From positions 62,001 through 126,000 of the forward strand of contig JAAHGF010000020.1 in assembly GCA_010672585.1 (NCBI GenBank): a stretch of 64,000 bases of DNA, read 5' to 3'. The notes under the pieces were generated by a model, which was not told where the DNA came from, ran no database searches, and was given only the letters and a program-made list of their open reading frames with translations. Position 1 is the stretch's first letter, and every line of letters begins with the position of its first letter. The translations under genes were made by a program, and so were the position numbers. The stretch comes from Okeania sp. SIO1I7 (GTDB taxonomy: Bacteria > Cyanobacteriota > Cyanobacteriia > Cyanobacteriales > Microcoleaceae). Shown piece by piece: positions 23,633 through 37,708 of the stretch.

Positions 23633-23853
23633 TAAAATATGGCGTTGCTGATTCTGGGTATGATTTTGCCCCCCTAGCCCCCCAATTTTGGGGGGAATAA
23701 AATTCTAAAAGTCCCCCTTAATCCCCCTCCCGTACCCCTTGGAAAGGGGGAAGCCAGAGGATGCTGCGCTTTTTGTTGAAAGGGGATTTAGGGGGCTTGA
23801 CCAGAACCAAACAATCGCGCATTCATACTTCAATTCAGCAACGCCTAAAATAT
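23633..23853. mobile_element. Miniature inverted-repeat element, GGCGTTGCTGA family, copy 2
   Basis: The element spans 23641-23845, in opposite orientation to copy 1, with TAAAATAT on both sides (23633-23640 and 23846-23853) as an 8-bp target duplication. It carries an extra internal segment with GGAAGCCAGAGGATG. Its last base forms the G of the heterocyclase stop codon TAG. Confidence 0.78.
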
Positions 23854-26163
23854 TATCGGCATTGAATTCATCTGTTTTTCCTGCAATGCTTCAGACAACC
23901 AACCCATTTTCACAGGTACATCATACAATCTACCCCTCCCAAACCTCGGCCAAAAATGGCGTAACCCAGGCACAATAACTTTCACCACATTTAGTTCAAT
24001 ATCTGGGCGAGTCTGATCCAAAACTAAAGTTTCCATTCCTGCTGCTTGAGCAATTTTCACACAAGTCAAAACATCTTCATAAATGTCATCACTCCAAACC
24101 AGAGGATAATCTCCATAAACTTTGGCTGGTATTTCTGGGTGGGGAGCTAAATAAGGTTGATTTTCTAAAGTTGCTGTGGTCATCCATTCCTGTATCCCTT
24201 CTTCCATTTGACTAATATCTTCTTCATCTATTCCCAAACTAATCTGATTAAGTTCTGTTACCGCTCGCAGCATGGCAATTTTTGGGTCAAAATGCGCTCC
24301 AAAACCTGTAATAATTCGTTCATACTCCCCATCAATTCGACGCGAAACTGCGCTAAAAGCTGGTATCCCCAAATCTGTTGTTAAATCTAATACCCATAAC
24401 TCACGATGATTTTGTTGATAAAATTCTTGTACTGCCAATAAATAGGGGTCGTCAAAACTGGCTAAATCTACCGATGGACGCTTCAGGCGATTATACCACC
24501 AAATTGCTACACTATCGCGCTCTACTAATTCCATAAATCCTTGCAAAATTGCTTCTTCTATGGTATTGCCAGCAGCGTTGCCATTAGAATCAGCTATACA
24601 GAAATTATGGTTTGTGGGCAAGTTATAAGCATAATAACACCAAGCAGTAGGCAAGTATTTACGAGTATCTTCTGTGAGAGACCATACTGGAGTCCAATCA
24701 ATTTTTTTGTTGGGATTAAAAGGTTGGGGAATCCAATCGCAGTCTACTTTACTTTTGGCATTCAATTTTTTGCGGTTTGCATATTGAGTAGGACTGAAGT
24801 GCAAAATTTTTTCTGGGTGAATAGCTTTTTCTCCCAATTCAGCTAAAGTTGATTTTTTCCTGGGTTCGTCTCCTTGGAATATTCCTGAATAACGTTCGAT
24901 CGCTTCACAAAAACCACTAGCTTTAGCTTGGCGATCGCTCTTGCCTTTTCCTCCACTTTTATGATTAAGGGAACGACGCAAAGTACTGATAGTTTTGGCA
25001 CTACCGAAACTATGAATAGCGTTGTAGGTATGAATTAAAGGATTATTTGGGTCGGAGGTTGGTACTAAAGCACTGACAACACCAGTAATGGGACTTATCA
25101 GTTGTTCGTAGCGTTTTGTTGTTTGGTCGGGAGTGAGTGCGCGATGACCACCATCAGAGGTAAAATGTTTTTTGCGATTGGTGAGAGTCAGGGGATAAAA
25201 TGCCATGTCTTTGAGTAATTTAGGATCGCCGCAAGCTTGACATTGAGGTCTTTTAATCAAAATATGAGTTTCTGTGGTCAGGTTTGTCTGATTAAAGGTA
25301 ATTACTTTTCCCGCGAGGGTAGTAAAGTTAGGAATTTCCTCCCCACATCTTTGTACTATCCATTTGGCAACTTCAGTGGTTATCAGATTTATAGCAGTTG
25401 CCATAGTTGAGGGTAGGAAACCAAAAGAGGTAGGGAGACATCCAGAAATTTCTCTTTTACTCGCACTAGGTTTTTTGGTGGAAGGAGATTTCTGTTTCTG
25501 TCGCAAAACAGCAGCTTCAACTTCCCGATGACCGCGCAAACGTTGAGCTAAACATTCCCAACATCCGGTATCTTCTGGTTCAAATATGGGACCTAACCAC
25601 AGTAACCCTCCCACAGGTTTTGCTAGCAACCAAGGTTGATGAGCGCAGACTGCGGTTTCATTGATTTTTGCAAGTTGTGGTTGTAGGTAGTCATCGGTGA
25701 GGACAACTAATAGTGCGTTGCGGTCTGATGTTAGTGGGTAATTTTCCCAAAGCTTGGTTTTAATACCTATTGCTGTCAAATTTTCTATTAATAAGTCTGT
25801 GGTTGTTTTTCCGACTGAGGCGACATAAACTGAGATTTTCTGGAGATATTCGGAGGCGAGTTGTGGTTCTACATTGAGTAATGACCAAAATGCAGCGACT
25901 TGTTGTGGGAGTTGGGGAGTTGCTGTGGTTAAATAACCTTTGTTGTGGAGGCGATCGAGAACATATTCGATTTGTTCTAAGTCTGCTATTTCTGATAGGG
26001 TTTGGCAAATTTCTTCAAAGGTATGTTGACCGTCTAATAGGGGAATTAGGTGACAATAAAATTCTCCTGTTAGGGCGTGAGTGGAATTTTCTCCTAAGAG
26101 GTAAACGTGTTTTGGTTGGATAATTTCGATGCGAAAATGTGGTTTAATTTGTGGATTTTTCAT
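23845..26163 (-). CDS. Cyanobactin heterocyclase (PatD/TruD-type YcaO cyclodehydratase)
   Basis: A 772-residue enzyme that uses ATP to turn Cys (or Ser/Thr) of the precursor core into azolines. It starts MKNPQIKPHFRIEIIQPKHV, as PatD/TruD proteins do, so the 80 further upstream codons open in this frame are only tandem repeat. The N-terminal half is the leader-binding and E1-like part with zinc cysteines (CWECLAQR and CQACGDPK). The C-terminal YcaO half shows FCEAIERYSG, DSNGNAAGN, EEAILQGFMELVERDS and GFGAHFDP, the ATP/Mg-binding motifs. It ends MNSMPIIF, close to the family's usual end. The stop codon abuts an inserted miniature element. The precursor gene lies 1.1 kb downstream on the same strand. 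Confidence 0.95.
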   Translation of the reverse strand: MKNPQIKPHFRIEIIQPKHVYLLGENSTHALTGEFYCHLIPLLDGQHTFEEICQTLSEIADLEQIEYVLDRLHNKGYLTTATPQLPQQVAAFWSLLNVEPQLASEYLQKISVYVASVGKTTTDLLIENLTAIGIKTKLWENYPLTSDRNALLVVLTDDYLQPQLAKINETAVCAHQPWLLAKPVGGLLWLGPIFEPEDTGCWECLAQRLRGHREVEAAVLRQKQKSPSTKKPSASKREISGCLPTSFGFLPSTMATAINLITTEVAKWIVQRCGEEIPNFTTLAGKVITFNQTNLTTETHILIKRPQCQACGDPKLLKDMAFYPLTLTNRKKHFTSDGGHRALTPDQTTKRYEQLISPITGVVSALVPTSDPNNPLIHTYNAIHSFGSAKTISTLRRSLNHKSGGKGKSDRQAKASGFCEAIERYSGIFQGDEPRKKSTLAELGEKAIHPEKILHFSPTQYANRKKLNAKSKVDCDWIPQPFNPNKKIDWTPVWSLTEDTRKYLPTAWCYYAYNLPTNHNFCIADSNGNAAGNTIEEAILQGFMELVERDSVAIWWYNRLKRPSVDLASFDDPYLLAVQEFYQQNHRELWVLDLTTDLGIPAFSAVSRRIDGEYERIITGFGAHFDPKIAMLRAVTELNQISLGIDEEDISQMEEGIQEWMTTATLENQPYLAPHPEIPAKVYGDYPLVWSDDIYEDVLTCVKIAQAAGMETLVLDQTRPDIELNVVKVIVPGLRHFWPRFGRGRLYDVPVKMGWLSEALQEKQMNSMPIIF

Positions 26164-28769
26164 AATGATTTTCAAGTTGGGATAAGTGATTAGTTTTATA
26201 GCAGAAAATAGGGAATAGTAGGAAAAATATTTTCCATTCCAGATATTTTGCCATTCCAAATATTTTCCGTTGCAGATATTTTCCGTTGCAGATATTTTCC
26301 GATTCCAAATATTTTGCCATTCCAGATATTTCCGATTCCAAATATTTTGCCATTCCAGATATTTCCGATTCCAGATATTTTGCCCTTCCAGATATTTTGC
26401 CATTCCAGATATTTTGTCATTCCAGATATTTCCGATTCCAGATATTTTGTCATTCCAGATATTTCCCGTTGCAGATATTTTGCCATTCCAGATATTTTGT
26501 CATTTCAGATATTTCCCGTTGCAGATATTTTCCGTTCCAGATATTTTGCCATTTCATACCAAATCCTGTTTAGTTAGACCACAAATAATTCAACTACAAT
26601 TCATATATATCAAGCTTTTTTCAATAATAAATTGTGGTCTATAGTAATCGGATTTGGTATCAGATATTTTGCCATTCCAGATATTTCCCGTTCCAGATAT
26701 TTTCCGATTCCAGATATTTTGCCATTCCAGATATTTCCCGTTCCAGATATTTTCCGATTCCAGATATTTTGCCATTCCAGATATTTTCCGTTCCAGATAT
26801 TTTCCGATTCCAGATATTTTGCCATTTCAGATATTTCCCATTCCAGATATTTTCCCGTTCCAAATATTTCCCATTCCAGATATTTTGCCATTCCAGATAT
26901 TTTCTTTTCCGATTCCAAATATTTTCCCATTCCAGATATTTTCCCGTTCCAAATATTTCCGATTCCAGATATTTCCCGTTGCAGATATTTCCCCGTTGTA
27001 GATATTTCCCCGTTGTAGATATTTTCCGTTGCAGATATTTTCCCGTTCCAAATATTTCCGATTCCAGATATTTCCCGTTGCAGATATTTTGCCATTTCAG
27101 ATATTTTCCCGTTGCAGATATTTTGCCATTTCAGATATTTTCCCGTTGCAGATATTTTGCCATTTCAGATATTTCCCGTTGCAGATATTTTCCCGTTCCA
27201 AATATTTCTGATTCCAGATATTTTGCCATTCCAGATATTTTCTTTTCCGATTCCAAATATTTTCCCATTCCAGATATTTTCCCGTTCCAAATATTTCCCA
27301 TTCCAGATATTTTGCCATTTCAGATATTTCCCATTCCAGATATTTTCCCGTTGCAGATATTTTGCCATTTCAGATATTTCCCGTTCCAAATATTTCCCGT
27401 TCCAAATATTTTCCCATTCCAGATATTTTCCCGTTCCAAATATTTCCCATTCCAGAGATTTTGCCATTTCAGATATTTTCCCATTCCAAATATTTTCCCG
27501 TTCCAGATATTTCCCATTCCAGATATTTTGTCATTCCAGATATTTTGCCATTTCAGATATTTTGTCATTCCAGATATTTTGCCATTTCAGATATTTCCGA
27601 TTCCAGATATTTCCCGTTGCAGATATTTTCCCATTCCAGATATTTCCCATTCCAGATATTTTCCCATTCCAGATATTTTCTTTTCCGATTCCAAATATTT
27701 TCCCATTCCAGATATTTTCCCATTCCAGATATTTTCTTTTCCGATTCCAAATATTTTGCCATTCCAGAGATTTTCCCGTTCCAAATATTTCCCATTCCAG
27801 AGATTTTGCCATTTCAGATATTTCCCATTCCAGATATTTTGCCATTTCATATATTTCCCGTTCCAGATATTTTCCGATTCCAGATATTTCCCGTTGCAGA
27901 GATTTTGCCATTTCAGATATTTCCCGTTCCAGATATTTTCCGATTCCAGATATTTTCTCATTTCAGATATTTTCCCGTTCCAGATATTTCCCGTTCCAGA
28001 TATTTTGCCATTTCAGATATTTCCCGTTGCAGATATTTTCCCGTTCCAGATATTTTGCCATTTCAGATATTTCCCGTTCCAGATATTTTGCCATTTCATA
28101 TATTTCCCGTTCCAGATATTTCCCGTTCCAGATATTTTCCCGTTCCAGATATTTCCCCGTTGTAGATATTTTCCGTTGCAGATATTTCCCGTTGCAGATA
28201 TTTTGCCATTTCAGATATTTCCCGTTCCAGATATTTTCCCGTTCCAGATATTTCCCCGTTGTAGATATTTCCCGTTGCAGATATTTTCCCGTTGCAGATA
28301 TTTTGCCATTTCAGATATTTCCCGTTCCAGATATTTTCCCGTTCCAGATATTTCCCATTCTAGATATTTTCCCATTCCAGATATTTTCTTTTCCGATTCC
28401 AAATATTTTCCAATTCCAGATATTTCCAATTCCAGATATTTTGCCATTTCAGATATTTTCCCGTTCCAGATATTTTCCGATTCCAGATATTTTCTCATTT
28501 CAGATATTTTGCCATTTCATATATTTCCCGTTCCAAATATTTCCCGTTCCAAATATTTCCCGTTGCAGATATTTCCCGTTGCAGATATTTCCCGTTCCAA
28601 ATATTTCCCGTTCCAAATATTTCCCGTTGCAGATATTTCCCGTTCCAGATATTTTGCCATTCCAAATATTTCCCATTCCAGATATTTTGCCATTCCAAAT
28701 ATTTCCCATTCCAGATATTTCCCATTCCAGATATTTCCCATTTCAGATATTTTGCCATTCCAAATATTT
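26164..28769. other. Non-coding interval between the VMAP gene and the heterocyclase
   Basis: Apart from 63 bp next to the heterocyclase start (26164-26226), the whole interval is a tandem repeat array with one inserted element. The heterocyclase promoter must lie in those 63 bp or within the array. Confidence 0.7.
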
Positions 28770-28770
28770 T
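26227..28770. repeat. 2.5-kb array of 16/17-bp tandem repeats
   Basis: About 145-150 units of the forms GATATTTCCCGTTCCA (16 bp) and GATATTTTGCCATTCCA (17 bp), with variants at the middle (CCATT, CCGTT, CGATT, CCGTTG) and at the end (CCAGATA, CCAAATA, GCAGATA). Longer blocks recur, for example the marker TCTTTTCCGATTCCAAATA near 26908, 27240, 27679, 27736 and 28387, showing expansion by duplication of multi-unit blocks. Several frames stay open for hundreds of codons on both strands simply because the unit lacks stops; these are not genes. The array reaches into the stop codon of the VMAP gene. Confidence 0.95.
26557..26659. mobile_element. Miniature inverted-repeat element inside the tandem array
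   Basis: A 103-bp sequence unlike the array, with inverted ends TACCAAATCC...TAGACCACAA and the complement. TCA stands on each side (26554-26556 and 26660-26662), and the undisturbed array sequence is ATTTCAGATATT, so this is an insertion into a repeat unit with a 3-bp target duplication. Confidence 0.75.
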
Positions 28771-30191
28771 CACCGCTTGGTTATAGCTGTATAATTTTTT
28801 ATATAATGCTTAAATATAGCTTTAACTGTAAATAAAATATCTTTTTCTGCTGTAATTTTATCTATCAAATATCGTCTTTCTAAAGATAGTAATGTCTGAA
28901 ATAATTCTGGTGATGATAATTGGGATTTTTCTAATAACTGGCAAAGTGAAACAGATTTTGGTTGTTCGCTCAGTAGAGAGATAACTTGTTTTTCTAATTC
29001 AGACAAACGTTGAAAATGCTGCTGGAAAATATTGGTTAATTCACTGCACAAAAATAATGGTTGATAACTCAAATATTGAGCTACACTCCCACCAAATAAA
29101 TTTTTAATTGTCTGCCCTACTAATTTTAACCATTGAGGATTACCTTGATAGAAATTTATCAATTCTTGCCATTTCTCTTCATCTAATAATCCTTGATTTT
29201 TCAGCATCTCACGCGCCACCTTTTCCGTTAAACCAGTTAATTGAAATAAACGTACTGCTGAGTCATTATCTGTAAAGTTGAAAATGTCTAAAGGCGGCTC
29301 CCAACTGTTAAGAATAAAACAACTATTGTGAGGAAGTTCGCCGATAATTTTAAATAGGTTGCCATAGTTTTCATACCCTGATTTATAGTTACCAATAAGT
29401 TCCCCACTACTGAATATTTGCTGTAAGTCATCTAGAATAATTAGACAACGCATATCCCGTAATTTTTCAACGAGTAATGACAGTTGAGCATCGGTGTTAT
29501 TGGAGAGGTTTATTTCTGTTACGTTGGAGATAATTTCAATTAAATTTTTGAGAGTTACGTTTAGAGGTGGAGATGTGAAGAGGGTGCGCCAGATGATGTG
29601 GTCGAAATTAGATTCTATTTCGGGGATGAGGTGACGAATAATAGTGCTTTTACCGATACCGCTTATTCCTGAGACGGTGATGAGACGACAGCGATGTTTG
29701 ACTATCCAGGTTTTGAGAGTGGTGAGTTCGGTGGAGCGATCGTAGAATATTTTTCTGATATCTGGTGCGTCTCTGAGGTCGAGTTTTGGCAGTGGGGTAT
29801 TATTTTCGTTTGTTGTTTGTGTAGTGGGTAATTTTTGTTTGGTTTCTGGGGAAGGAATGTTTTCTGTACAGAGATTAATATTACCTTTTACATAATTACT
29901 TTTTCCCAAATAAACTAAATTTGAACTATTAGAAACTAGATATCTTTCCATCGCAGCGCGGAAATTTGACTTATGAATTTTTTCATTTAATTCCTTGGAA
30001 ATAAGTTGCCATAAATTTGAAGCGACATTGCCAACATGAAATTTAGTGCAGTGGTATTGTTGAGCAACCTTTGAGTATTTTTCCCCTTGCCAAGTAGCGC
30101 GTAAAATAGCTTCTTGCAGACTATCAAGGTGTTTGCCAGTTTTGTCAAAAACCACATCATCGACAAACCTTAAAATTTCATTAAGAGTCAT
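28770..30191 (-). CDS. VMAP-type HTH/NB-ARC ATPase, possibly truncated
   Basis: A 473-residue STAND ATPase. Residues 1-90 resemble the N-terminal helix-turn-helix domain of vWA-MoxR-associated (VMAP) proteins (LDSLQEAILRATWQGEKYSK, FHVGNVASNLWQLISKELNE). The NB-ARC core follows, with P-loop GISGIGKST, kinase-2 CLIILDDLQQ and a winged-helix part near the end. Such proteins usually carry a C-terminal sensor (WD40 or TPR); here the frame ends just after the winged helix, and its stop codon contains the first base of the tandem array. The sensor may have been lost when the array formed. Function in signalling or defence is inferred from the family. Confidence 0.8.
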   Translation of the reverse strand: MTLNEILRFVDDVVFDKTGKHLDSLQEAILRATWQGEKYSKVAQQYHCTKFHVGNVASNLWQLISKELNEKIHKSNFRAAMERYLVSNSSNLVYLGKSNYVKGNINLCTENIPSPETKQKLPTTQTTNENNTPLPKLDLRDAPDIRKIFYDRSTELTTLKTWIVKHRCRLITVSGISGIGKSTIIRHLIPEIESNFDHIIWRTLFTSPPLNVTLKNLIEIISNVTEINLSNNTDAQLSLLVEKLRDMRCLIILDDLQQIFSSGELIGNYKSGYENYGNLFKIIGELPHNSCFILNSWEPPLDIFNFTDNDSAVRLFQLTGLTEKVAREMLKNQGLLDEEKWQELINFYQGNPQWLKLVGQTIKNLFGGSVAQYLSYQPLFLCSELTNIFQQHFQRLSELEKQVISLLSEQPKSVSLCQLLEKSQLSSPELFQTLLSLERRYLIDKITAEKDILFTVKAIFKHYIKNYTAITKR

Positions 30192-30465
30192 TAGTCAATT
30201 TTGGTTAGGAATTTCTTCCTATTATACATGATGTTTTCTGATATTTCGGAAAAAAAATCTGATATTTTCTGATAATTATGCTTAGTTGTACATTATTTTT
30301 TGTGACTTTTATAAGTAATGGCTATTATTATCACTTGACTATTATCTGTAGTAACCTATTAGGTACTTAGATGACTGTGCCACACAATTAACAATAACAA
30401 TTGTTGATTTTTAATAAAGTCTTCTAAGAGCTAATTTATCAAGTAAATATAAGGAGAACCATCAA
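30192..30465. other. Divergent promoter region
   Basis: This 274-bp region separates two divergent genes. It is AT-rich, with a direct repeat TTTCTGATATTT/TCTGATAATT near 30236-30276. The ribosome site AAGGAG at 30451-30456 decides the GTG start of the radical SAM gene 9 bp later. No clear operator was found. Confidence 0.45.
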
Positions 30466-31743
30466 GTGCTTAGTTTGACCGAAACTCCAGTATTTTCCAC
30501 CGAAGATACCCGATTTCAAGAAATTAGTAATCTGATTGTTAAAGTCACAAACCGATGTAACTTGAATTGTAGCTATTGCTATGAAAATATAGTCCAAAAA
30601 GGTCAAGATATGGATTTAAAAACCTTTAAAAACTTAGTAGACAAAGTAATGAAAAATTCTGTGCAAAACAGGATTAATTTCATTCTTCACGGAGGAGAAC
30701 CTACCTTAATTGGTATTGAGTGGATTACAGCAGCAGTAGAATACGCTAAACAACAAGCAAAAATTTATGGAAAAAGTACTACTTTTGGGATTCAAACTAA
30801 CATGATTGCTCTAACTGATAAGTTAATTAATACTTTTATAGATTTGAATGTACATATTAGCTGTAGCTTAGACGGACCACATTATTTGAAAGGAGCAATG
30901 AGAGACTATGCTCAAAAAGCTTATCAATGTTATCAGCTAGCTAGAAAGTTAGATGCAAATGTCGGGATTTTAATGACTATAAATCATAGTAACTATCAGT
31001 ATTTTACAGAAATCATAGACTGGCTAAAAAATGAACTTCAAGTCAGAGAATTTAAGGCTAATGTTATTACCTCTGTAGGTGCTGGTTACAACTTGCCACC
31101 ACTAAGTGCAGAGCAAGTATTTACTGCACAAAAAGATATTTTAAATGCCATGATTAAAACTGAAGGAAAAGAAATAGTTGAGGAAAACTTAAAAGTAGAA
31201 TTACTGCGCTTTTTTGACAATAATAGAAGAGAAACTCTTTGTGCAGAAAAAACCTGTGGAGCAGGGAAACGAGTTGTTGGTATTACACCAGATGGTAGTT
31301 TGCTTCCTTGCGGACGTTTTCAGTGGGATGATTATAACTTTCAGTTAGGTCATTTATCTGAAAAAATAAATAGTCAAGTTGCTGAAAATTTCCAGAAGTC
31401 GGTTCAAAACTTTCATTCCTTGGTACCAGAATCATGGTACGATTGTGAATCATGTTCAGCACGAAAAATTTGTTCCTATGGTTGTCAAGCATTTATTGTC
31501 AGGTCAAAGGAAAAAGCTAATGTTGAATGTTTACCTACTAAAATGAAATATCGTTTTTTTGAAGAAAACCGGGATAAACTTTTACCAGTAGTCAATTCTA
31601 TACGAGAAAAATATGATGAATCTCGGCAACCAGAATCAGATTATCCAGATTATCAAGATGAAATAACATACCGAGACTACCAGGACTATTCCGACCAATT
31701 CTATAAGGATTCTACCTATACAGATGGAGGACATGGTTGGTAA
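30466..31743 (+). CDS. Radical SAM/SPASM peptide maturase with Y-x-D repeat tail
   Basis: A 425-residue radical SAM enzyme. The SAM cluster motif is C31-x3-C35-x2-C38 (CNLNCSYCYE), followed by HGGEPTL and the barrel. A SPASM domain provides auxiliary-cluster cysteines C259, C264, C282, C327, C330, C336, C340 and C355. This architecture belongs to RiPP maturases and anaerobic sulfatase activators. The last 35 residues are not enzyme-like: they hold seven Tyr-x-Asp motifs (YPD, YQD, YRD, YQD, YSD, YKD, YTD) and end GGHGW. Aromatic-x-Asp is the kind of motif that three-residue-cyclophane maturases crosslink, so the tail may be a fused substrate. Start GTG, with AAGGAG 9 bp upstream. The substrate is otherwise not visible nearby. 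Confidence 0.88.
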   Translation: MLSLTETPVFSTEDTRFQEISNLIVKVTNRCNLNCSYCYENIVQKGQDMDLKTFKNLVDKVMKNSVQNRINFILHGGEPTLIGIEWITAAVEYAKQQAKIYGKSTTFGIQTNMIALTDKLINTFIDLNVHISCSLDGPHYLKGAMRDYAQKAYQCYQLARKLDANVGILMTINHSNYQYFTEIIDWLKNELQVREFKANVITSVGAGYNLPPLSAEQVFTAQKDILNAMIKTEGKEIVEENLKVELLRFFDNNRRETLCAEKTCGAGKRVVGITPDGSLLPCGRFQWDDYNFQLGHLSEKINSQVAENFQKSVQNFHSLVPESWYDCESCSARKICSYGCQAFIVRSKEKANVECLPTKMKYRFFEENRDKLLPVVNSIREKYDESRQPESDYPDYQDEITYRDYQDYSDQFYKDSTYTDGGHGW

Positions 31744-31825
31744 CAGTGCAAAATCTGAATAGACAATTACAGCAGTACTGCAGCACTTTGAGACTTGAAT
31801 TAATCAAAAATTTAACTTAAGTATT

Positions 31826-31882
31826 AGGTGGGCAAATATTGGTTTGTATATCAACAGTAAAATTTGTGATATTTGCCTACCC
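31826..31882. terminator. Possible bidirectional hairpin between convergent genes
   Basis: AGGTGGGCAAATAT (31826-31839) pairs imperfectly with ATATTTGCCTACCC (31869-31882). It lies between the radical SAM gene and the convergent nuclease-like pseudogene. The loop is long (29 bases) and there is no T-run, so termination is only a suggestion. Confidence 0.35.
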
Positions 31883-31923
31883 TACTTATTACTTTAATAC
31901 CTACTTATTACTTTAATACCTAA

Positions 31924-32529
31924 TTACAAAGACTTAACCGATCTAACCATTTCCACCAAAATTCCTATTATCTTCCTCGAATCTTTAATATAGTAATTCT
32001 CCACATCAATAAACACTACATTCTTTTCCAATTTCAAAAATTTCCAGACATGACCTGTCGTAACCACACCATAAACAAAAGGAATATCTTTACCATCTTG
32101 TTGATTATATATTTCAGCCCCAACCATTTCTGCAATACATTCTCCTAAACCACCAACTATCCTTTCATTTTTAGCCTCTACAAGAACAACTACAGGAGTA
32201 TCCAAATATAATTGTTCCGGAGATTGACTAATAATAAAATCACAAAATCCATTCAATCCCTTATCTCTATCAACTGAGAAATCTATACCCGAAAAAAAAC
32301 TGATTTGAAGTTGCCTTTTAATCTCCAGCAAAATATTAATAATTATTAGCTCAGAACTAGCTTTTTCTGTCGCGATCGCTAAAGCAATAGGAACATTTTG
32401 CTTTAACATTTCAGCTAATAAATTACTAATCTCTACAGGTTCAACTTAAGAAAATAAATCTTCTGTTTCTATAAATTTTAAATTAAACTCAGCTTTGACT
32501 TTTTTTAAGTCAAAGTCACTATATGACAT
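31924..32529 (-). pseudogene. PD-(D/E)xK-like hypothetical gene broken by an in-frame TAA
   Basis: From the ATG at 32529 the frame reads MSYSDFDLKKVKAEFNLKF...TEDLFS, then TAA (32446-32448), then VEPVEISNLLAEMLKQNVP and the rest, all in the same frame, ending at 31924. The whole resembles a common cyanobacterial family of about 200 residues. A D (in CDFIIS) and VVVLVEAKNE form a PD-(D/E)xK-like nuclease triad. Downstream of the stop the next ATG (32409) allows a 161-residue product lacking the first 40 residues. Either this is a recent pseudogene or the shorter product is made. Confidence 0.8.
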
Positions 32530-35758: not shown

Positions 35759-36601
35759 ATGAAAGTATGGCAAATTGAGGAAAACCAAATTATCTGGGGA
35801 GAAGCGATCGCTGCTTTGGACAGGTATGTAAAAGATAGTAGTATCGATCTAATATTTGCCGATCCTCCTTATAATATTGGCAAGAAATTTAATGGTAGAC
35901 AAAACAAATGGGATTCTAATAATGAATATATAGAATGGTGTTATCAGTGGATAGATTTATGTTTGAGGAAATTGAAAAAGACAGGTAGTATTTATATTAT
36001 GGCAGCAACACAGTATATGCCATATCTAGATATATATTTAAGGGATAAAATTTCTATTCTTTCCCGAATTATTTGGTATTATGATAGTTCAGGAGTTCAG
36101 GCAAAGAAATATTTTGGTTCGTTATACGAGCCTATTTTATTTGCTGTAAAAGACCGCAATAACTATACATTCAACTCTGAAGAAATAATGGTTGAAGCTA
36201 AAACAGGTGCAGTGCGTAAATTGATTGATTATCGCAAAGCAAAACCAGCACCTTATAATACTAAAAAAGTGCCTGGGAATGTTTGGTATATTCCCAGGGT
36301 TAGATATAGAATGCCTGAGTATAGAAATCATCCGACTCAGAAACCAGAAGCTTTATTGGAAAGAATTATTAAAGCTAGTAGTAATCCTGGTAACTTAATT
36401 TTAGATTTATTTGCCGGAACATTCACAACATCTGTAGTTGCTCAAAGATTGGGTAGAAAATTTATCAGTATAGAAATAGAAGAAGAGTATGTAAAGTTAG
36501 GATTAGAACGATTAGATTTAGTTTCTGAAACTCAAAATAATCAGAAATTTTTCAAGAATAAAGCTATTCAATTAAGTTTGGATCTAACCATGGGTGACTA
36601 G
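35759..36601 (+). CDS. Adenine-specific DNA methyltransferase, YhdJ-like
   Basis: A 280-residue methyltransferase of the beta class: catalytic motif IV comes first (D35-P-P-Y38 in FADPPYNIGK) and the SAM-binding FAG motif last (LDLFAGTFTT). Long stretches match my memory of E. coli YhdJ, for example YDSSGVQAKK, YEPILFAVKD, TGAVRKLIDYRK and PGNVWYIPRVRYRMPEY. YhdJ methylates ATGCAT, so this enzyme probably does too. The stop codon TAG touches the ATG of the next gene with no gap, the arrangement expected of a methyltransferase and its restriction enzyme. Confidence 0.92.
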   Translation: MKVWQIEENQIIWGEAIAALDRYVKDSSIDLIFADPPYNIGKKFNGRQNKWDSNNEYIEWCYQWIDLCLRKLKKTGSIYIMAATQYMPYLDIYLRDKISILSRIIWYYDSSGVQAKKYFGSLYEPILFAVKDRNNYTFNSEEIMVEAKTGAVRKLIDYRKAKPAPYNTKKVPGNVWYIPRVRYRMPEYRNHPTQKPEALLERIIKASSNPGNLILDLFAGTFTTSVVAQRLGRKFISIEIEEEYVKLGLERLDLVSETQNNQKFFKNKAIQLSLDLTMGD

Positions 36602-37708
36602 ATGGAACATGAGTTTACACAAGTAATCAAAAGTCTTCTTCAGAATGTTTTTAGAGATCGATCGGAATTAATCTATTCAATGTCTCCTATTTTACAATAT
36701 ATTAATGTCAAAACTAGAGCTGCTAATCGAGGATCAAAAGCCAGAAATTCTTTTGGTAATTTGTATGCAATTTATGTTTTAGTTGAGGATTATGTAAAAA
36801 AAGGATTTGATGAAAGTGGTCAATACAATTTCTATGAAGGTAGCAAGTATTCTGAACTTTTAAGGCGACAAAGAGAATTGCCTTTTGGGCAAAAATTACA
36901 AAACCATGCTTTGAATCACAGACTAAACCAAGAATTTAAAAAATATTTCCCTACTTGTGATTATATTCCTGTTATCAGAGAATCTTCAAACAATAGGTAT
37001 TGGTTTAATGAAAATTTACTTCTTTGTATAACTGAAGATAACATTTACAATCTAGGAGCGATAATTATTAAAATAATTGATAAGTATATTGAGACTAAAA
37101 TTGATGCTTTTGAAAATTTCATAAACTCTTGCGAACAAATAAATCAATTAGTAGAAGCAAATCAAAATGAGGCTGTTGATTTTATTGTTGAACTGTTACA
37201 ACCAAATGTCGATGCTAGATTATTTGAGATAGTTAGCTATAGTATTTTGAAGTATTATTACTACGAACAGACTATATTTTTTGGTTTTGATATGCAAGAT
37301 ATACAACAAGAAAATTTGAAACTCTATAAAACAGGGCGAACTAATGCTAATGACGGCGGTATAGATTTTGTAATGAAACCATTAGGAAGATTTTTTCAAG
37401 TCACTGAAACAACAGATTTTAAAAAGTATTTCTTAGACATTGATAAAATAGAAAAGTATCCCATAACTTTCGTAATTAAAGCAACTGAAAATACAGATAA
37501 ATTGTTACAAAAAATTAGAAAGAAGGCTGAACAGCAATACTCTGTCAATTTAATAGTCGATAAGTATATAGACTGTATAGAAGAAATTATTAATCTGCCA
37601 ATTTTGAGAGAACGTTTTAAGCACGCTGTAGAAATGGGATACTTGGGTAATATACTAGAGGAAATAATTAAACAAAGCAAAGTAGAATTTAACTATAATT
37701 TTATTTAA
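36602..37708 (+). CDS. Probable type II restriction endonuclease partner
   Basis: A 368-residue protein that I do not recognise by family. It starts immediately after the methyltransferase stop codon (TAG-ATG). The N-terminal half is helical and basic (RSELIYSMSPILQY, NRGSKARNSFGNLYAIYVLVEDY). Around residues 245-268 is TNANDGGIDFVMKPLGRFFQVTE, which fits a PD-(D/E)xK nuclease core with the second acidic or polar pair replaced by Q-x-x-E. Context makes it the cognate restriction enzyme of an ATGCAT-type system (as AvaIII or NsiI), but no sequence match to such enzymes was tested. It converges with the next gene 6 bp away. Confidence 0.72.
   Translation: MEHEFTQVIKSLLQNVFRDRSELIYSMSPILQYINVKTRAANRGSKARNSFGNLYAIYVLVEDYVKKGFDESGQYNFYEGSKYSELLRRQRELPFGQKLQNHALNHRLNQEFKKYFPTCDYIPVIRESSNNRYWFNENLLLCITEDNIYNLGAIIIKIIDKYIETKIDAFENFINSCEQINQLVEANQNEAVDFIVELLQPNVDARLFEIVSYSILKYYYYEQTIFFGFDMQDIQQENLKLYKTGRTNANDGGIDFVMKPLGRFFQVTETTDFKKYFLDIDKIEKYPITFVIKATENTDKLLQKIRKKAEQQYSVNLIVDKYIDCIEEIINLPILRERFKHAVEMGYLGNILEEIIKQSKVEFNYNFI

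Follow-up and report, generated by a model that had tools for sequence, protein, structure and literature searches.

A radical SAM/SPASM enzyme with a Tyr-x-Asp tail beside a STAND ATPase in Okeania: a possible self-modifying peptide maturase

The window, a stretch of 64,000 nucleotides from the cyanobacterium Okeania sp. SIO1I7, contains a gene for a radical SAM/SPASM enzyme whose C-terminal tail carries seven Tyr-x-Asp (Y-x-D) triplets. The gene stands beside a divergent gene for a STAND ATPase, in a segment which is replaced by other genes in related genomes. The features are collected in Table 1. The genome of the window is called G000; G424, G425, G426 and G427 belong to the same genus, and G396 to another genus of the family.

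Table 1. Features of the window locus and of the related locus in G396
Feature	Position	Strand	Basis or remark
Divergent STAND ATPase, 473 aa, NB-ARC P-loop	28770..30191	-	Pfam NB-ARC, E 1.8e-8
Shared divergent promoter region	30192..30337	.	most relatives keep it; words TTTTCTGA and TCTGATATTT present
Exchangeable cassette, radical SAM gene its sole content	30338..31826	.	alignment to same-genus regions
Ribosome-binding site AAGGAGA ahead of GTG	30451..30457	+	read directly
Radical SAM/SPASM enzyme gene, intact, 425 aa, GTG start	30466..31743	+	Pfam, NCBIfam
CNLNCSYC, the CxxxCxxC radical SAM cluster motif, residues 31-38	30556..30579	+	Cys also in G396
SPASM region, eight Cys for auxiliary clusters	31240..31530	+	8 of 8 also in G396
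Fused tail, seven Tyr-x-Asp triplets, end GGHGW; proposed built-in multi-core substrate	31642..31740	+	residues 393-425
Palindromic element, downstream cassette edge	31827..31895	+	alignment, RNA fold
G396: second radical SAM protein, downstream of the homologue	L029 3395-4657		weak MoaA and viperin matches
G396: 76-aa Tyr-tailed peptide ORF, upstream of the homologue	L029 6188-6418		

The enzyme and its tail

The first-pass annotation called the protein a radical SAM/SPASM enzyme, and this is borne out by the Pfam matches and by a complete set of cluster cysteines. Radical_SAM is matched with an E value of 5.6e-16 and SPASM with 19 bits, slightly below the cut-off of 21.5. Cysteines C31, C35 and C38 all align with cysteines of the homologue in G396; those of the SPASM region lie at residues 259, 264, 282, 327, 330, 336, 340 and 355. 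The enzyme matches 73 NCBIfam families, and the scores given here are from the 25 listed. QhpD/PeaB (131 bits, cut-off 453) and PapB (130, cut-off 340) lead the list; lower scores are those of YhhB (83, cut-off 445), AmcB (71, cut-off 425), FxsB (63, cut-off 370), GrrM (61, cut-off 310) and XyeB (59, cut-off 450). Among these 25 families the curated cut-off is reached for no named cyclophane family, and a YxdB model is absent. Since all the scores given here are far under the cut-offs, those of the cyclophane maturases included, the enzyme is an outlier among the SPASM peptide maturases and family membership does not fix its chemistry.

The matches to QhpD, the SCIFF maturase and HxsB start at profile positions 92, 89 and 75, as against positions 19, 13 and 14 of the enzyme. 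The enzyme therefore lacks most of the N-terminal segment of these three proteins, which, judged from the alignments, is the segment that precedes the barrel in several trans-acting maturases. In the SCIFF enzyme it is this N-terminal segment that holds the RRE. In PADLOC the enzyme scores 44 and 38 bits against viperin models, the likely reason being the barrel that both have in common.

The annotation had also counted seven Y-x-D triplets in the last 35 residues, a count confirmed by the residue positions, by shuffling and by the register of the tyrosines. The triplets YPD, YQD, YRD, YQD, YSD, YKD and YTD occupy residues 393-395, 396-398, 402-404, 405-407, 408-410, 413-415 and 418-420, all within residues 391-425. 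They are disjoint, and all seven could therefore carry cross-links simultaneously. Every one of the seven Tyr in the last 35 residues has an Asp at +2, and any other offset between -6 and +6 gives at most four of seven. Shuffling the whole protein 100,000 times never produced seven Y-x-D in 35 residues (the maximum was five), and shuffles at the composition of the tail reached seven once in 200,000. The background was counted in 2,730 open segments of at least 40 amino acids (228,286 residues from the window and the fetched loci, which partly overlap); besides the tail and its copies, the top count there was three Y-x-D per 35 amino acids. No Cys is found in the last 45 residues of the enzyme, and thioether chemistry inside the tail is therefore excluded.

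Recent slippage of the DNA was considered as the origin of the tail and judged unlikely: the Tyr and Asp codons vary synonymously (TAT/TAC 5:2, GAT/GAC 4:3) while the middle position is taken by different amino acids (P, Q, R, Q, S, K, T). In this one sequence, which for that reason does not permit a selection test, the pattern looks like selection on the outer Tyr and Asp of the triplets.

The tail might instead be an unmodified, disordered appendage, acidic and rich in Tyr, which serves localisation, the binding of a partner such as the ATPase, the binding of metal through Tyr, Asp and His, or tyrosine phosphorylation, the enzyme itself modifying something else. Tails with clusters of Tyr are borne by bacterial tyrosine kinases; the tail here is indeed acidic and terminates in GGHGW, the only close homologue found, that of G396, has no such tail, and modification of the tail is a prediction from sequence. 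However, neither a charged tail nor a phosphorylated one needs the strict +2 register kept by seven of seven Tyr-Asp pairs, and this register equals that of a known radical SAM cross-link motif. Nor is a separate substrate gene seen beside the enzyme, the ORFs of at least 12 amino acids at 30150-30520 and 31700-31960 containing no Y-x-D. We regard an appendage of this kind as unlikely.

Relatives of the enzyme

The enzyme gene is, in the genomes sampled, rare. At the family level 21 of 61 genomes match it at E <= 1e-8; the closest non-self match is that of G396 (E 7.5e-44, 29% identity) and the following one has an E value of 4.9e-16. At the order level two of 388 genomes match at E <= 1e-18, namely G000 itself and G396, and at the class level G000 is the only one of 388 at E <= 1e-50. 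A profile made from the window and G396 enzymes finds 16 of the 388 class genomes at E <= 1e-22, self included, and the next best match has an E value of 1e-29; the two enzymes therefore form a small separate group. At E <= 1e-45 this sample yielded self alone. These three genome samples overlap. Among plasmids 41 records match the enzyme at E <= 1e-10, the 20 listed having 26-30% identity and being mostly annotated as PeaB; the G396 enzyme finds no plasmid record at E <= 1e-25. Viral contigs gave 28 matching loci with 22-41% local identity, and a contig scan based on exact short peptide words gave one clostridial relative with 26%.

No second tailed homologue was found in the 388 class, 388 order and 61 family genomes, and the tail used as a query found none in 98 relatives. 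Fifty-nine distinct homologous ORFs were read (phmmer, E <= 1e-5, loci L001, L029, L030 and L031-L099 being left out). In the last 60 residues 48 of them lack a Y-x-D and 11 have a single one, and counted over the whole proteins no 35-residue stretch has more than two. The set includes ORFs from 11 of the 28 viral loci, and none of these viral homologues carries the tail.

The G396 enzyme (410 aa) ends at the point where the tail of the window enzyme starts, which shows that a member of the subfamily can lack the tail. The 76-aa peptide encoded upstream of it ends in GYYVYHKYNKGT, with YYVYHKYNKGT at the C-terminus. All four of its Tyr lie within the last 11 residues, and the peptide contains two Y-x-K triplets (YHK and YNK), a number reached by 1,160 of 200,000 shuffles. 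It has no homologue at E <= 1e-3 in the other 203 of 204 order genomes. From its position and composition we infer that it is a precursor. With its two radical SAM proteins and the Tyr-tailed peptide the locus is a candidate two-enzyme RiPP locus.

The two loci (that of G396 being L003/L029) share the closest pair of enzymes found, an equal set of SPASM cysteines and a divergent STAND ATPase, of 462 aa in G396; they differ in that G396 has no tail, a separate peptide and a second radical SAM gene. The G396 locus thus looks, from gene content, like a split version of the fused system in the window. It should be noted that the annotation had named a homologue with the same core, no tail and a separate precursor gene as the finding that would speak against a fused substrate, and if the 76-aa peptide is a precursor G396 is one such case. 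We would rather read the two loci as a split and fused pair of the kind known from borosins and burpitides than as a refutation.

The split arrangement in G396 would also suit a pseudosubstrate, that is, a tail which regulates the enzyme by occupying its active site until displaced, the real substrate being a peptide encoded elsewhere. This we consider improbable; seven motifs exceed the need of one active site, and a search of G000 with the tail gave no second match at E <= 0.1, a weak argument as the query is short and of low complexity. Equally small is the probability we give to a tail modified in trans, either between molecules or by another maturase. The sequence does not separate the action of a neighbouring copy from action in cis; another maturase is at variance with the finding that the enzyme has no further relative in G000 at E <= 1e-3 and that its gene is the sole match of the GrrM/OscB model in this genome at E <= 1e-15.

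The ATPase and the exchangeable cassette

The first-pass annotation missed two points, the STAND ATPase neighbour and the exchange of the cassette. By inspection the N-terminal region of the ATPase is helix-turn-helix-like, and PADLOC matches the protein to PDC-S27 at 21 and 19 bits. Along almost the full length it shares 36% identity with the ATPase adjoining the G396 operon, which is likewise placed divergently beside the peptide gene and the two radical SAM genes. The chance of such a neighbourhood in G396 is estimated at about 0.7%, from 22 candidate ATPases in a genome of 6.8 Mb and an assumed one gene per 1,100 bases. Matches with 84-94% identity to the window ATPase are found in six genomes, the four of the same genus together with G391 and G440; in two of these four, G426 and G424 (L053, L056), the gene is broken by one TAA. 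The 69 overlapping ATPase loci L031-L099 include only two with a radical SAM gene of this kind, both covering the window locus. Paralogues of the ATPase in G000 adjoin other contents, for example, by inspection, an E1-like/ubiquitin-like operon (L048). The translations inspected place ThiF/ubiquitin-like genes beside the paralogue at L048 4371-7848, and a JAB-like gene beside the one in L059. NB-ARC joined to sigma-70 regions is on record in cyanobacteria in the available text of PMC11119718, and the ATPase might therefore simply be a transcription regulator.

The promoter region between the two genes is 88-95% identical in G424, G425, G426 and G391 and 74-76% identical in G427 and G440. The word TTTTCTGA is present in all seven promoter regions compared and TCTGATATTT in five of the seven, and together they are a possible operator. 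A -10-like TATTAT lies at 30326-30331; promoter matches are no commoner than in shuffles. Homology ends at 30337 in G424, G425, G426 and G440 and at 30310 in G427, whose promoter region has diverged further; in G391 it extends to 30330, with the contig end shortly beyond. It returns at 31827 in G424, G425, G426 and G427. A DNA search of five genomes of the genus gave, among the matches listed, nothing except self inside 30338-31826. In the same slot G426 encodes one protein of 148 aa and one of 138 aa, G425 several small proteins which by inspection are mostly secreted-looking, G427 a protein of 501 aa that contains an SH3 domain, and G424 proteins of 262 and 222 aa and a small ORF. RiPP-like genes are not apparent among these contents in G424-G427, and the window cassette has neither a transporter nor a peptidase. 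In the loci compared, the radical SAM gene is a rare cargo of a variable slot.

The palindromic element at the downstream edge could be a site of exchange by recombination. Folded as RNA the segment 31740-31900 gives -33.4 kcal/mol (z -1.9), and the element is not called a terminator by a consensus scan. The G424 slot (L085 6533-7735) has three copies of the element, one of them partial, between its genes, as if cassettes had been added successively. An ATPase with variable neighbours fits the STAND-NTPase conflict systems, in which case the neighbours would be the effectors.

The annotation took the nearby cyanobactin genes as a sign that the region collects RiPP functions, and this found no support. 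A link between the radical SAM gene and the cyanobactin-type YcaO gene (23845-26403) was rejected as unsupported: YcaO-homologous DNA is kept in G426 without the radical SAM gene, and in G425 it is kept from 24384, the limit of the fetched region, onwards. Neither genome has a radical SAM match at E <= 1e-8. The comparison covers G426 and G425, the contigs of G424 and G427 being too short, and the two regions are probably not linked.

Between the YcaO gene and the ATPase, at 26200-28830, lies a long stretch of short repeats with several frames open on both strands and with repetitive translations (MAKYLEWQNIWNRK..., MPFQIFCHSRYF...). The DNA of this stretch has an aligned counterpart at the corresponding position in G426 and G425; the called start of the YcaO ORF falls within the stretch and probably lies too far upstream. 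A second variable stretch, 36573-37474, is missing from G426, where the flanking matches (to 36572 and from 37475) are contiguous; most of the ORF following a DNA methyltransferase, by inspection likely a restriction enzyme, is thereby absent in G426.

Proposed mechanism and known systems

The best reading, which we hold to be moderately probable, is that of a fused, self-modifying maturase of the triceptide type. In this model, which also postulates cleavage by a protease, regulation through the ATPase and a function in conflict, the cross-links would be formed in cis. The radical SAM/SPASM domain at the N-terminus (residues about 19-355) would generate a 5'-deoxyadenosyl radical which abstracts a beta-hydrogen from the Asp of every Y-x-D triplet in its own C-terminal tail. 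The Cβ of the Asp would then couple to C3 of the Tyr two residues earlier, an auxiliary Fe-S cluster accepting the second electron, with a loss of 2 H per motif and of up to 14 H for seven. The covalent tether of the tail would stand in for leader recognition, and release of the tail would require a protease, of which none was identified. The gene would be a replaceable effector cassette using the divergent promoter region shared with the STAND (NB-ARC) ATPase, and a conflict or signalling module gated by the ATPase would probably have the modified peptide as its output.

The annotation had suggested that the enzyme may be a maturase of its own tail. This part is favoured by the radical SAM/SPASM core with all its cluster cysteines, by the non-random tail of seven disjoint triplets without Cys, in which all Tyr are paired and the motif is that of YxdB, and by the flanks without a small Y-x-D ORF. 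The fused reading is also preferred because most of the N-terminal segment of QhpD, the SCIFF maturase and HxsB is missing, because the nearest homologue has a separate Tyr-tailed peptide, because the searches of G000 gave no second tail or enzyme, and because both subfamily members found adjoin a divergent STAND ATPase of about 470 aa. Against it are counted the occurrence in a single genome with no second tailed homologue found there or in the samples, the scores below the cyclophane cut-offs, the cassette without transporter or peptidase, the slot contents of the relatives which are not RiPP-like, the other ATPase loci without such a radical SAM gene, and the stop in the ATPase gene in two of four same-genus genomes. 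The wider proposal of a one-gene, self-cross-linking radical SAM RiPP with seven Tyr-Asp pairs, serving as an exchangeable effector of a STAND ATPase and having a split sister in another genus of the family, is a tentative one about which we remain in some doubt.

The triceptide enzyme YxdB acts on a Y-x-D motif and forms a bond between C3 of Tyr and Cβ of Asp, as described in the available part of PMC11002830. The likeness consists of Tyr-x-Asp triplets together with a radical SAM enzyme and is one of motif. As we read that source, enzyme and precursor are separate genes of a cluster, whereas the motifs in the window are fused to the enzyme. Of the features of the triceptide maturases (3-CyFE) the window has CxxxCxxC, the SPASM cysteines and aromatic-x-polar triplets, which would act as substrate; the flanking ORFs listed include no separate precursor with Y-x-D, and the score lies under the cut-off of each named cyclophane family listed.

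QhpD uses Asp/Glu as cross-link partner. The accessible text on PapB states that this enzyme likewise acts on Asp/Glu and accepts many leader-tethered sequences if Cys is present (PMC9413430). These two families, QhpD/PeaB and PapB, give the best of the listed NCBIfam scores, though far under the cut-offs, and they differ in that their thioether is built with Cys. In the tail a cross-link motif with Cys is missing, a difference that concerns the tail and not substrates in trans.

Pathways that occur in a fused as well as a split form are described, in the parts of these sources at hand, for borosins (PMC11395268) and for burpitides (PMC12186524). There, as proposed here, enzyme and core peptide(s) form one polypeptide with split versions in relatives, the enzyme being a methyltransferase or a copper cyclase instead of a radical SAM enzyme. 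No precedent for a radical SAM enzyme fused to its own precursor was found in a literature search for which subscription papers were mostly outside reach. For another NTPase conflict system a radical SAM enzyme acting on a peptide effector was predicted by Kaur et al. 2020, and this makes a STAND-controlled context credible (PMC7159879, available portion). Their FtsH ternary systems, as that portion presents them, have a standalone peptide gene and a vWA-MoxR-FtsH module, whereas the window has a STAND ATPase and a fused peptide. On this comparison the presumed triceptide-type chemistry would be of a known kind, here in a fused architecture and in a cassette of a STAND ATPase locus.

If the model is true, a single gene both encodes a peptide with several rings and carries out its modification, and radical SAM enzymes join the small set of RiPP enzymes which are fused to their substrate. 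The enzyme would be a leader-free cis-acting cross-linker with seven consecutive sites, useful in studies of the order of events and of processivity. Radical-modified peptides would be tied to NLR-like ATPases in cyanobacteria, and the conserved slot with its changing contents offers a natural set of comparisons from which to learn what is controlled by these ATPases.
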